DNA from: Polyangia bacterium
GTDB lineage: Bacteria > Myxococcota_A > Polyangia > Nannocystales > Nannocystaceae
Direction of reading: 5' to 3'
Assembly: GCA_030429545.1 (NCBI GenBank)
Contig: JAUIFF010000002.1
Location: 620,001-684,000 of the forward strand
Length of the DNA: 64,000 nt
The stretch's first letter is position 1. Each line of letters starts with the position of its first letter. The notes beneath the pieces are model-generated. The model saw only the letters and a list, made by a program, of their open reading frames with translations. It was not told the DNA's origin and did no database searches. Shown piece after piece: positions 9,883 to 13,920 of the stretch. The translations under genes and the position numbers were made by a program.

Positions 9883-11163
9883 CTAGTTGTTGCACGCGCA
9901 GTTTACGTAGCACGCGTTGTGGGAGAAGTTGGCGTCGGGCGACTGCCCGTTGGCGCCCCAGTTGGTGTTGTTGTCGGTCGAGGAGCACTCGATCGTGACC
10001 CAGTTGGAGCCGTTGTTTTTGTTGGGCCAAAACAAAAACCCAACCGCGTTGCCGGTGTGTTGGGTGGCTGCGCTGTCGAAGCCTCCGTGGGGTTGGCAGA
10101 CTTGGGTGCAGTTCATGCCGAGGTTGGGTGCGGTATACCAACAGCCCTGGATGCCGTTTCCGGGGTCGAACAGTTCGCCGCCGCAGTTGGCCATGCAGTT
10201 GTTGTTGCAGTCGTCGTTGTCGATGTCGTTACCGTCATCGCACTGCTCGTCGTTGTTGACGATCCCATCGCCACATACCGGGTTGGTACAGGCGTTTGTA
10301 CACGCGTCGTCGTCGACCTGGTTACCGTCGTCGCATTCCTCTGAACCGGCGACGACCCCATCGCCACATACGGGTAGGGCGCACATGTTGGAGCAGTCGT
10401 CGTCATCGACGTCATTGCCGTCGTCGCACTCCTCCATGTTGTTGACGATCCCGTCGCCACAGCTCGGCAGCGTGCAAGTGTTGGTGCAGTCGTCGTCGTC
10501 GATTTGGTTGCCGTCGTCGCAGGCCTCGTCACCGGCCGTGACACCGTCGCCGCAGACCGGGAACAGGCAGGCGTTGGAGCAGGCGTCGTCGTCGATGTCG
10601 TTGGCGTCGTCGCACTCTTCACCACCGTTGACATAGCCATCTCCGCATGCCGGGAGTGCACACTCCGTTGTACAATCATCTTCATTGACATCGTTGCCGT
10701 CGTCGCAGGCCTCGTCGCCGGCGACAATGCCATCGCCGCACACAGGCAGGGTGCAGGCATTGGAACAGGCGTCGTCGTCGACATCGTTGGCGTCGTCGCA
10801 CTCTTCGCCCATTTCGACCACGCCATTGCCACAGGCCGGCTCCTCGCAAACGCCGGCGATACAGGTCAGGCCGGTGTTACAAACGTCGCCGTCGAGGCAC
10901 GCACACCCGAGATCGCCGTCGGTGCAACTGTCGGTGTCGGTGTTCGGGTCTTCGGTGGTCGTTTCGCCACCGCTGCCCTCACTCGGGTCGTCGGTCGCGT
11001 CGCTCGTGTCGGTCGCGTCGGTTTCGGTTTGGTCCGTGTCGCTGGTGGTTGTGGTGGTCGCGGTGGAGGTTGTGCCGATCGTATCGTCACGGGTCTCTTC
11101 GCCACCGCAGCCGATAAATAGGACAGAAGACAGGCATAGGGGGGTCCAAAGGGCTACTCGCAT
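9883..11163 (-). CDS. Cys-rich repeat lipoprotein (DUF4215 / Myxo-Cys type)
   Basis: A 426-residue surface lipoprotein. The signal ends at LFIGC (about residue 19), followed by a roughly 60-residue Thr/Asp/Ser/Glu linker. The body has about seven tandem units of about 35 residues with the pattern CGDGxVxxGEECDDGNxxDxDxCxxxC, the cysteine-rich repeat abundant in myxobacteria. The conserved Asp/Asn residues suggest calcium binding and the cysteines disulfides. The last 95 residues form a different domain with six or so cysteines (GGELFDPGNGIQGCWYTAPN to NACYVNCACNN). No enzymatic function is visible. An adhesive or matrix role would be inference. The repetitive DNA explains several long antisense open frames here. 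Confidence 0.85.
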   Translation of the reverse strand: MRVALWTPLCLSSVLFIGCGGEETRDDTIGTTSTATTTTTSDTDQTETDATDTSDATDDPSEGSGGETTTEDPNTDTDSCTDGDLGCACLDGDVCNTGLTCIAGVCEEPACGNGVVEMGEECDDANDVDDDACSNACTLPVCGDGIVAGDEACDDGNDVNEDDCTTECALPACGDGYVNGGEECDDANDIDDDACSNACLFPVCGDGVTAGDEACDDGNQIDDDDCTNTCTLPSCGDGIVNNMEECDDGNDVDDDDCSNMCALPVCGDGVVAGSEECDDGNQVDDDACTNACTNPVCGDGIVNNDEQCDDGNDIDNDDCNNNCMANCGGELFDPGNGIQGCWYTAPNLGMNCTQVCQPHGGFDSAATQHTGNAVGFLFWPNKNNGSNWVTIECSSTDNNTNWGANGQSPDANFSHNACYVNCACNN

Positions 11164-11180: not shown

Positions 11181-11207
11181 AATATGTCTCTTAAGACATA
11201 TTTTTAC
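11181..11207. terminator. AT-rich hairpin between gpsA-like gene and lipoprotein gene
   Basis: A 9-bp inverted repeat AATATGTCT / AGACATATT (11181-11189, 11194-11202) with loop CTTA is followed by T residues on the plus strand. It sits in the 40-base gap between the stop of the GpsA-like gene and the start of the lipoprotein gene, both on the minus strand. It could attenuate readthrough or be an operator for the lipoprotein gene. Its AT content contrasts with the surroundings. Confidence 0.45.
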
Positions 11208-12142
11208 TCGCCGTCAACGTCGAGCGTCATCAGTCGCGTAAAAAATTCGGTCCCACCCATTCGACCCTCGAAAACTTCGTTCATAAGCCTGAGTACGGGC
11301 ATTTCGCAGTTGATGCGATCGAGGTACGAAGCGATCCAGCGCGCCCCGAGGATGCCTTCGATGTAGGTTCCAGCTTCCGTGCCGGCGTCTGCGGTGGCTG
11401 CCCCTGCGGCTAGGCGGGCTCCGACCGTGAGCTCCGGTCGGTCGTCGCCGGCAAGCGCCGCAAACAGGTCGCCCGTGCCCGCGAGACCGTGGAATGTCTC
11501 CGCCCGTGCCCCGAGCCGAACGCCGAGTTGACTGGCCTCGCGTAGGCCCCGTGTGACGAGCATGGCAAGGGTGGAGGGGTGCAGGCCATTGTGACGCGCA
11601 TAGCCAATCGCGAGTGAGAGCAGGCCGACAACGGTCGATGCGAGCTCGACTCCGAGGACGTCATCTGTTGCATATACTTGGAAATTTTCGCTGCTCAGGG
11701 CGTCGCGGACCGCGGCTTGGACCTCGGGAAAGCGCGAGCCGATGATCGCCGCCGAGGGTTTGCCCTGCTGGAGGGCATGGGCGACAACCGGACCCGCGAG
11801 TGCACCGATTCGCCGACAGGGGGTTTGCTGGCGCAACACCTGGGTGAGGCTCAACAGGTTCTCGCCGACGATCCCGCGACTGATGTGGACCAACAGATGA
11901 CTGCCATCGATGTGCGTCGCCAGCTGTTGCGCGACCTCGGTGACATAGATCGAGGGAATCGCAAAGATGATCAGCTCGGCCAAGGCGGCGCGCTCGAGTT
12001 CGGTGGTGACAGTGATCGAATCGGTGGCTTCGCGCTGGGGGCGACGACTCCAAAGCAGGACTTGCTTGCCGGTGCGAGTGGCCGCAGCCGCGAGGCCCCA
12101 GCCAAAGTCACCACCGCCTAGAATCGCAATATCGGTCGTCAT
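11204..12142 (-). CDS. GpsA-like glycerol-3-phosphate dehydrogenase homologue lacking the catalytic lysine
   Basis: 312 residues with the full NAD(P)-dependent glycerol-3-phosphate dehydrogenase layout: Rossmann motif ILGGGDFGWGLA (residues 7-18), VPS-type segment FAIPSIYV, SRGIVGEN, GPVVAHAL, then GVELASTVVGLLSLAIG and TFHGLAGTGDLFAAL. In GpsA the third block reads GVxLxxxxKNVIAI, whose Lys is the catalytic residue. Here that position is Val172 and the Asn is Gly. The Lys of KGLE is Arg, and the Lys of GPSFAKE is His. I therefore expect cofactor binding but doubt normal catalysis. The ATG at 12142 has a good ribosome binding site (GGAGGT, 4 bases before). It lies 56 bases downstream of a PlsB-like acyltransferase gene on the same strand. 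Confidence 0.75.
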   Translation of the reverse strand: MTTDIAILGGGDFGWGLAAAATRTGKQVLLWSRRPQREATDSITVTTELERAALAELIIFAIPSIYVTEVAQQLATHIDGSHLLVHISRGIVGENLLSLTQVLRQQTPCRRIGALAGPVVAHALQQGKPSAAIIGSRFPEVQAAVRDALSSENFQVYATDDVLGVELASTVVGLLSLAIGYARHNGLHPSTLAMLVTRGLREASQLGVRLGARAETFHGLAGTGDLFAALAGDDRPELTVGARLAAGAATADAGTEAGTYIEGILGARWIASYLDRINCEMPVLRLMNEVFEGRMGGTEFFTRLMTLDVDGE

Positions 12143-12198
12143 GTGTACCTCCGCTGGGTCCAACTCAAATTTACATGTTGATACAATTGAGTCGCCAT

Positions 12199-13920
12199 CT
12201 ACACGCCTCCTGCGAGCGCGGTGATCTCCCGGGCCGCGGCCATGGTCTCATCGGTAGCCAACTCCTCGGCCCAGGGCACGAGGCGGTTTTGGTAAAACAA
12301 CAGTAGGTTCGGATCTTCGATCCGCAGGCGGTCGCCGACCCGCTCGACGACCGTGGTCGAGTGATAGCCTTCCCAGGCGTCGAGGGCGGTCTCGAGCAGA
12401 CCGGCTGGGGTTTCGCAGCGCAGGCTCGGGTCGACCCGTACACGCCCTTCGCTTTCGAGACCGAGCAGGGCATTTCGTGCATGTGCAATGTCTTCGATGA
12501 GTTGCTGGCGCGGCATTTCGACTTCCCCGCGCAGGCGTTGGCGGCTAAATAGGTCGCGGCCACGGGTTTCGGCGACAAAGTAGCGATACAGCAGGTGGGC
12601 GACCAGCTGGGTCCACATAATGACGGTTTCGCGGTGGTAGGCCGCGGTCAGGTATTCTCCGAGCTCGCGGGTGTAGCCGGCGTCGCGGGCCGCATCGACC
12701 GAGGCCACGCCACCGCGGCGGACGTAGGTGCCGGGGTCAATCGTGCGACCGCCGGGGACCAGCGACTGGCCGTTGTCGTCGACGGGATTGCAAAACGGAT
12801 CGATCGGGTCGGCAAACCGAATCACGCAGGCGCTTTGCAGACCCCGGAGTTTCGCTGTAAATGCAAGCATCCGATCGAGCTGCGAGGACTCGTCGTCGGT
12901 GATGATGTAGCGTGCCTTGCCTGCGCCCTTGAGGTGGTCGGCAATCAGGGTTTCGGCCTCGAGCACGAGTGCATAGTTGATGGTGACGGGGACAAAAAAC
13001 AGGGGCCGCGGGGTTCCGCGGACCTGGTTGCGAGCAAACGCTTCGATCGCCGTGCCGGCCAGCCCGAGCTTGACCTTGCGCTCGATCATCCCGGAGCGCG
13101 AGCGTGTCCCCCCGGGGAAAAACAGCGAGTGATAGCCGCGCTCGAGCATCAGGCACGAGTAGGTCTTGAGGACATCTTTGTAGACCTGTGCACGGATCCG
13201 ACGGTCGACGCGATAGGCCCCGAGGTTGTGCATAAAAAAGCTGAGCACCGGGTTTGAAAACAGGTTTTTGCCGGCACCGTAGACGACGGGGGGCAGGCCC
13301 TCGCGCACCAGGGTATAGCCGAGGGCGACCGAGTCGAGGTTGGAGCTGTGGGTTGGGACCAGCACCAGGGTGCCGATTTGGGCGAGGCGCTTGAGTTTGT
13401 CGATGTCCCCCTCGGCCTGCAGCCGCTGGTTGAGCATGGTCCATTGTAGCTGCAACAAATCCCGGGGGAGGGCGCGGGGGTTCATCACTCCGGTGAGCAC
13501 GCCCGGGACAATATGTTGGGTCATGCGGTAGACCCGGGTGTCGAAGTTGCCAGCGATGTCGCTGGCGAGATGGTCGACGATCTTGCGCAGCTCCTCGGTG
13601 AGCTCGGCATGCGAGAGTTTGGCGATCCGGCGTGAGAGCTTGCGCCAGCGGTCGAGCTCAAACGCGGTCTCGTCGTCTTTTTGCCCGGCGAGACGCCGGG
13701 TTTCGCTGTTGGCCGCGTCGTTGAGGATGTACTCGACATGGGCCCGCGAGCTGGCGTGGCGATCGACAACCCGGGCAACGACGTCGGCGATCACCTGTTG
13801 ACGCTCGGCGTTAAAGTGAAAGATCCGCGGATCGCCAGGTTGCTCGGCCCGGGGAAAGAGGTTTGGCACCCGCAGGGGCCTGGCCTTGAGAACACGGGCG
13901 ACGATCGACTTGATGCGCAT
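12199..13920 (-). CDS. PlsB/PlsC-superfamily glycerophospholipid acyltransferase
   Basis: A 573-residue protein with the LPLAT-type catalytic motifs: THSSNLD (His191, Asp196; the HX4D pair) and FFPGGTRSRSG (residues 267-277; usually FPEGTRSR), plus GAGKNLFSNP and VPVTINY matching the PlsB-type sub-motifs. These enzymes acylate glycerol-3-phosphate or lysophosphatidate at the membrane. The long N-terminal (190 residues) and C-terminal (250 residues) extensions favour the GPAT (PlsB) class over PlsC. The neighbouring GpsA-like gene would supply or sense glycerol-3-phosphate, which supports a role in phospholipid or storage-lipid synthesis. Three iterated palindromes (12478, 12856, 13445) lie inside. 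The start ATG at 13920 is the only good one. Confidence 0.8.
   Translation of the reverse strand: MRIKSIVARVLKARPLRVPNLFPRAEQPGDPRIFHFNAERQQVIADVVARVVDRHASSRAHVEYILNDAANSETRRLAGQKDDETAFELDRWRKLSRRIAKLSHAELTEELRKIVDHLASDIAGNFDTRVYRMTQHIVPGVLTGVMNPRALPRDLLQLQWTMLNQRLQAEGDIDKLKRLAQIGTLVLVPTHSSNLDSVALGYTLVREGLPPVVYGAGKNLFSNPVLSFFMHNLGAYRVDRRIRAQVYKDVLKTYSCLMLERGYHSLFFPGGTRSRSGMIERKVKLGLAGTAIEAFARNQVRGTPRPLFFVPVTINYALVLEAETLIADHLKGAGKARYIITDDESSQLDRMLAFTAKLRGLQSACVIRFADPIDPFCNPVDDNGQSLVPGGRTIDPGTYVRRGGVASVDAARDAGYTRELGEYLTAAYHRETVIMWTQLVAHLLYRYFVAETRGRDLFSRQRLRGEVEMPRQQLIEDIAHARNALLGLESEGRVRVDPSLRCETPAGLLETALDAWEGYHSTTVVERVGDRLRIEDPNLLLFYQNRLVPWAEELATDETMAAAREITALAGGV

Follow-up and report, generated by a model that had tools for sequence, protein, structure and literature searches.

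Glycerol-3-phosphate dehydrogenases (GPDHs), among them bacterial GpsA and human GPD1, are dimeric enzymes. The human paralogue GPD1L (structure 2pla) has a proposed sensor or regulatory role and keeps the catalytic residues; to our knowledge, no pairing of GPD1L with an acyltransferase has been described. Catalytically dead homologues which activate or stabilize an enzyme are known from other pathways, examples being the trypanosomatid AdoMetDC prozyme and the LCB1 subunit of serine palmitoyltransferase, and in both cases the enzyme and its dead subunit are paralogues. For human GPD1, the review PMC12874384 gives the increase of the reaction barrier caused by exchange of single active-site residues as 5.3 kcal/mol for K120A, 3.1 for K204A, 9.1 for R269A, 5.6 for N270A, and 6.5 for D260G; these increases are not simply additive, because their sum exceeds the total stabilization (PMC12874384). 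Here we describe a GpsA-like protein of the Myxococcota whose gene is paired with that of an acyltransferase. We consider it probable, at roughly 60 %, that this protein is a pseudo-dehydrogenase whose ancestor was an active GpsA encoded in the same operon, and that it was retained to serve the acyltransferase as a non-catalytic partner with a regulatory or structural role.

The window, i.e. the whole stretch of 64,000 nucleotides that was analysed, carries on its minus strand a two-gene unit composed of a gene for a GPAT/PlsB-like acyltransferase (positions 12199–13920, 573 amino acids) and, 56 nt downstream, the gpsA-like gene (positions 11204–12142, 312 amino acids), the product of which was studied by alignments to GPD1, Pfam searches, and a structure model. 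The co-directional acyltransferase gene 56 bases upstream, which had been noticed in the original prediction, is thus found as described. The spacer (positions 12143–12198, minus strand) contains a Shine-Dalgarno-like GGAGG about 7 nt 5′ of the ATG at position 12142 with which the gpsA-like reading frame starts, and a scan of promoters and terminators gave nothing above chance. In 21 of 27 loci of the order, with start codons as chosen by the script, the acyltransferase gene and the altered gpsA overlap by 4 nt instead of being separated by a 56-nt spacer. Just downstream of the pair, at positions 9883–11163 of the minus strand, a lipoprotein-like protein is encoded that is made up of repeated CGDG...EECDD...DDDxC units, which we take to be DUF4215-like cysteine-rich repeats.

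Like GpsA and GPD1, the protein matches the two GPDH domains PF01210 (72.8 bits, cut-off 23.1) and PF07479 (80.7 bits, cut-off 25), possesses a GxGxxG motif (GGGDFG), and is modelled (mean pLDDT 93) with the full GPDH fold, for which Foldseek reports TM scores of 0.89–0.90 to 3k96 and of 0.80–0.90 to human GPD1 chains. Unlike them, it misses every NCBIfam GpsA cut-off (best score 201.7 bits, cut-off 257), lacks a segment of about 17 residues after β2 that bears the canonical N and Y, and has lost most of its active site. In the alignment to human GPD1, V172 and G173 are located at the positions of K204 and N205, R89 at that of K120, A229 at that of T264, and P236 and E237 at those of R269 and N270, the canonical S-R-N being replaced by R-P-E (R235-P236-E237). 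D225, the equivalent of D260, is the sole survivor of the seven catalytic positions; all these equivalences were counted by hand, using a housekeeping relative against human GPD1 (6e8y), the alignment of the window protein, and the family alignment. The original prediction of V-G in place of K-N and of a retained Rossmann motif is borne out by these alignments. It had also named an Arg and a His in place of two further conserved lysines, for which a Lys-to-Arg exchange at position 89 can be recognized and a Lys-to-His exchange was not found: among the columns with at least 85 % conservation in housekeeping and intact operon GpsA that the altered proteins have lost, only positions 89 and 172 are lysine columns. 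Conservation of the substitutions in relatives, a check named in the original prediction, was likewise observed, in that all order-level orthologues with readable sites share them, and a sequencing or annotation error was rejected as their source on these grounds. Taken together, the sequence strongly suggests that the window protein is devoid of G3P dehydrogenase activity, an inactivity which we infer from the replaced residues; with GPD1L it would share the status of a GPDH paralogue linked to a proposed sensor or regulatory role, and it differs from GPD1L in its catalytic residues. If this is so, the matches to the GPDH domains may lead genome annotation and metabolic modelling to treat a dead enzyme as active. 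A second, canonical gpsA, for which the original prediction had proposed to look, exists in the window genome: its product, with K-N and S-R-N, is encoded on contig C24, and the idea that the window protein is the only GpsA of the genome was rejected.

The acyltransferase contains PF01553 (63.7 bits, cut-off 23) with an HX4D motif (HSSNLD), the H and D of which reach at least 95 % conservation in an alignment of 79 homologues, and a GTRSRSG stretch, which is well, though not fully, conserved in this alignment. In phmmer searches it matches the PDB chains 9vuq, a glycerol-3-phosphate acyltransferase, and 8e4y, human GPAT1, and the best Foldseek match of its model (pLDDT 84) is also human GPAT1 (E 2.8e-12 over 567 columns), on which it superposes loosely (TM 0.50, rmsd 11.1). 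By motif and best match, it probably is an acyltransferase of the GPAT/PlsB type with G3P or DHAP as the acceptor. It differs from described members in size (573 amino acids compared to 901 and 767 for the two matched proteins), in its location beside a gpsA-like gene, and in missing the equivalog cut-off of TIGR03703 (plsB; 80.9 bits, cut-off 618.5).

An orthologue of the altered gpsA is present in 27 of the 29 genomes that represent the order (all of one family code, and including the window genome), and the 26 orthologues from other genomes share 37–59 % identity with the window protein. Contig ends truncate two of the 27 orthologues (G012, G028), and a third (G016) is broken; for G003 and G009 (65 % completeness), only canonical GpsA was shown. 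In G016, which is Nannocystis pusilla Na p29 (L028/L079), the acyltransferase gene and the pseudo-gpsA are each split over two frames, owing either to errors of sequencing or to decay of the pair. Directly upstream of the altered gpsA, the acyltransferase gene is found in all 27 loci, and the residues H86, S88, R89, R110, R111, R235, P236, and E237 are invariant in 24 aligned orthologues. An alignment scan with one genome per species yielded 51 loci. Fifty of them are relatives from Nannocystis, Paraliomyxa, Enhygromyxa, Plesiocystis, Sandaracinus, and further Myxococcota or MAGs without classification; the remaining locus, a weak Erythrobacter match (L083), was set aside. All 50 relatives have the acyltransferase gene upstream on the same strand, a count that is not independent of the 27 order loci, as the two sets overlap in part (e.g. 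L033 = L005).

Seen from the side of the acyltransferase, at least 212 of 377 sampled Myxococcota genomes contain this protein (E up to 1e-20), at most six (E up to 1e-30) or three (E up to 1e-20) candidates being scored per genome in these scans. Fifty-six assessable loci, picked for family spread and remaining from 60 after two repeats and two loci cut by contig ends had been dropped, were inspected for neighbours: in 50 of them a co-directional gpsA-like gene follows the acyltransferase gene, in one (L182) an altered gpsA is adjacent but convergent (tail to tail), and in five (L181, L183, L200, L229, L242) there is no gpsA-like neighbour, so that a GpsA-like partner is dispensable in some cases. 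Eight draft genomes of family code f2 retain both the altered gpsA and the acyltransferase gene, albeit on different contigs (L119, L124, L128, L129, L133–L136, and L207 versus L201–L206, L208, and L209); no gpsA-like gene stands beside the acyltransferase gene in these genomes, and the altered sites were confirmed by reading. In G370, a genome of 89 % completeness, an altered GpsA is present and the matches listed include no acyltransferase. Of 93 genomes that belong to the class but not to the family of the window genome, at least 70 of the 72 with the acyltransferase and at least one of the 21 without it show, among the matches listed, two or more of the GpsA-like kind (Fisher p 4e-17, a value which overstates the evidence, as the genomes are related). 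A fusion ORF of the acyltransferase and the gpsA-like gene, which was sought as a sign of contact, was absent from the loci examined for it.

In other families, the same operon position is occupied by GpsA proteins with an intact active site. An alignment of 90 operon GpsA, in which gaps were counted as lost residues, contains 19 proteins with all seven catalytic residues and 71 with 0–3 of them, and none with 4–6. For the trees, the column comparison, and the distance ratios, we had chosen 75 operon representatives, one or a few per lineage, omitting for the most part broken copies, copies at contig ends, and altered GpsA located apart from the acyltransferase; the 90-row comparison adds 15 to these and omits the incomplete L236. 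All seven residues are also present in 15 of 15 housekeeping GpsA, a set without the housekeeping GpsA of the window genome, the K-N and S-R-N of which were read separately. Because housekeeping and intact operon forms share these residues, the catalytic loss is the derived state. It is uneven among the 71 altered proteins, K89 being kept in 6, N173 in 2, and D225 in 43. An intact second pair also occurs in Enhygromyxa and Plesiocystis (L145, L219, L220) and in G256 (L143). On the tree of the partner, two changes of state were counted with 75 rows and three with 76 rows (14 added, 13 removed), and a single origin of the altered state was not rejected (p-AU 0.35); in a quick GpsA tree of 90 rows, all 57 altered rows fall on one side of a branch with an SH-aLRT of 91. 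Based on the two to three changes in the partner tree, the single origin that is not rejected, and the grouping in the GpsA tree, we would claim between one and three losses of the catalytic state.

Judged by the alignment, three further residues are characteristic of the operon family, in its intact as well as in its altered form: H86 is found in 0 of 15 housekeeping, 15 of 19 intact operon, and 54 of 71 altered proteins, T107 in 0, 19, and 51 of these, respectively, and G113 in 0, 19, and 66. In the secondary structure of the model, H86 ends the strand 83–86, T107 is located just after the helix 99–106, and G113 lies within the strand 112–116, and because of these places the three residues are candidates for a partner-facing patch.

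The altered protein of the window's type is under purifying selection. In 14 pairs of this type, which are 63–98 % identical, several of which share a sequence, and several of which have dS > 1, dN/dS is 0.064–0.236 for the altered GpsA and 0.041–0.279 for the acyltransferase, and simple drift was rejected on these values for the window's type. The median ratio of tree distances of the GpsA-like protein to those of the acyltransferase is 1.19 for 18 intact and 1.92 for 57 altered forms; the altered form thus evolves about 1.6 times faster, its constraint being eased, not gone.

Because the chemistry was lost while the gene, the fold, the pairing, and the operon-specific residues were retained, a role exerted on the acyltransferase is the reading that we favour. 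An active GpsA beside a GPAT makes sense as a supply of G3P. Starting from this state, a GpsA once co-encoded with the GPAT/PlsB-like acyltransferase would have lost its catalytic and phosphate-binding residues, with retention of the fold and, in most lineages, of the Rossmann cofactor motif, and the resulting pseudo-dehydrogenase would have been kept as a non-catalytic partner of an acyltransferase that presumably makes lysophosphatidic acid. We propose that it would bind the acyltransferase and stabilize or gate it, the gating probably occurring in response to NAD(P)H via the retained Rossmann site. The original prediction had left the choice between a sensor, a regulatory subunit, and a dehydrogenase for another substrate; the conserved pairing and the intact operon form found elsewhere favour a partner subunit, the dehydrogenase for another substrate being the less probable choice. 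The proposed role resembles that of the AdoMetDC prozyme and LCB1 in that a dead homologue would be retained to activate or stabilize an enzyme, and differs from it in that the window protein is a homologue of the enzyme one pathway step upstream. Whereas pseudoenzyme partners as such are known, the derivation of one from the preceding enzyme of the pathway would, by this analogy, be new. Judged by titles and openings of abstracts, none of the open-access papers listed in literature searches dealt with this pair or with a dead bacterial GpsA.

The main rival explanation, which we regard as rather unlikely, is a working oxidoreductase with another substrate, most plausibly a reductase of acyl-DHAP: the acyltransferase would acylate DHAP and the altered GpsA would reduce the 1-acyl-DHAP to lysophosphatidate, the acyl chain being accommodated in the space vacated by the DHAP-specific residues and the segment after β2. 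The Rossmann glycines and R33 are kept in the window's type, as this explanation would have it, but some altered lineages lack the third glycine of GxGxxG, a motif kept in 55 of the 67 altered proteins with the region present. A new catalytic site could be formed by R89, R110, R111, and R235-P236-E237, which are new and invariant in the 24 orthologues, and related superfamilies, among them P5C reductase and imine reductases, are known to have retained the chemistry without the lysine. Across lineages, however, the replacing residues differ (R, G, H, A, or still K at position 89; V, A, S, T, M, R, W, and others at position 172), and no shared new proton donor was seen. The intact GpsA in the same operon suggests, moreover, that the ancestral partner supplied G3P. 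With respect to lipid metabolism, acyl-DHAP chemistry would not be out of place in myxobacteria, since a plasmalogen review (PMC9131029) lists GNPAT-like and AGPS-like genes for Myxococcus xanthus and presents the early ether-lipid steps as incompletely characterized.

That the altered protein acts on the housekeeping GpsA instead, as a prozyme-like subunit of a heterodimer which brings catalytic GpsA to the acyltransferase and couples G3P supply to acylation, appears improbable. GPDHs are dimers, the window genome has both altered and canonical forms, and nearly all acyltransferase-bearing genomes of the class show two or more GpsA-like matches. However, in the Plesiocystis and Enhygromyxa genomes G022–G024 these two matches are the altered protein of one pair and the intact GpsA encoded with a second acyltransferase, with no third among the GpsA-like matches listed, so that the housekeeping enzyme may have given way to the operon GpsA there. 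H86, T107, and G113 are, in addition, present in intact operon GpsA, which would need no such partner. Very improbable is a residual DHAP reductase activity with Arg89 replacing Lys120: D225, a positive charge at position 89, and the fold are all kept, but the equivalents of K204, N205, T264, R269, and N270 are all gone and an intact GpsA is present. A decaying duplicate without function, to which the faster evolution relative to the partner than in the intact form and the frame-broken genes of the one Nannocystis genome might point, is scarcely credible in view of the open reading frames, the type-specific residues that are invariant across the order, and dN/dS values (0.06–0.24) similar to those of the partner (0.04–0.28).

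If the partner role of the pseudo-dehydrogenase is correct, a metabolic enzyme has come to serve the enzyme that follows it in the pathway, as a regulatory or scaffold component, and the coexistence of active and dead states in one phylum at the same operon position provides a natural series for studying the origin and the function of a pseudoenzyme. A bacterial GPAT could then be a two-gene system. As a tentative extension, more doubtful than not, the first committed step of phospholipid synthesis might throughout the Myxococcota be a two-subunit one, in which a GPAT-like enzyme is accompanied by a pseudo-dehydrogenase derived from a G3P-feeding GpsA and acting as an NAD(P)H/G3P-responsive gate, and in some families by the intact GpsA.

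The Myxococcota would in that case gain a control point of phospholipid synthesis beside PlsX/PlsY. In the window genome, one PlsY match and two PlsX matches were found, and because these and the canonical GpsA are also present, the GpsA-like/acyltransferase pair is an addition to the usual PlsX/PlsY route. The second PlsX match is located on contig C24 (G000 C24:1390087–1391049), beside the canonical PlsX, and at least two separate PlsX matches occur in 19 of the 29 genomes of the order.
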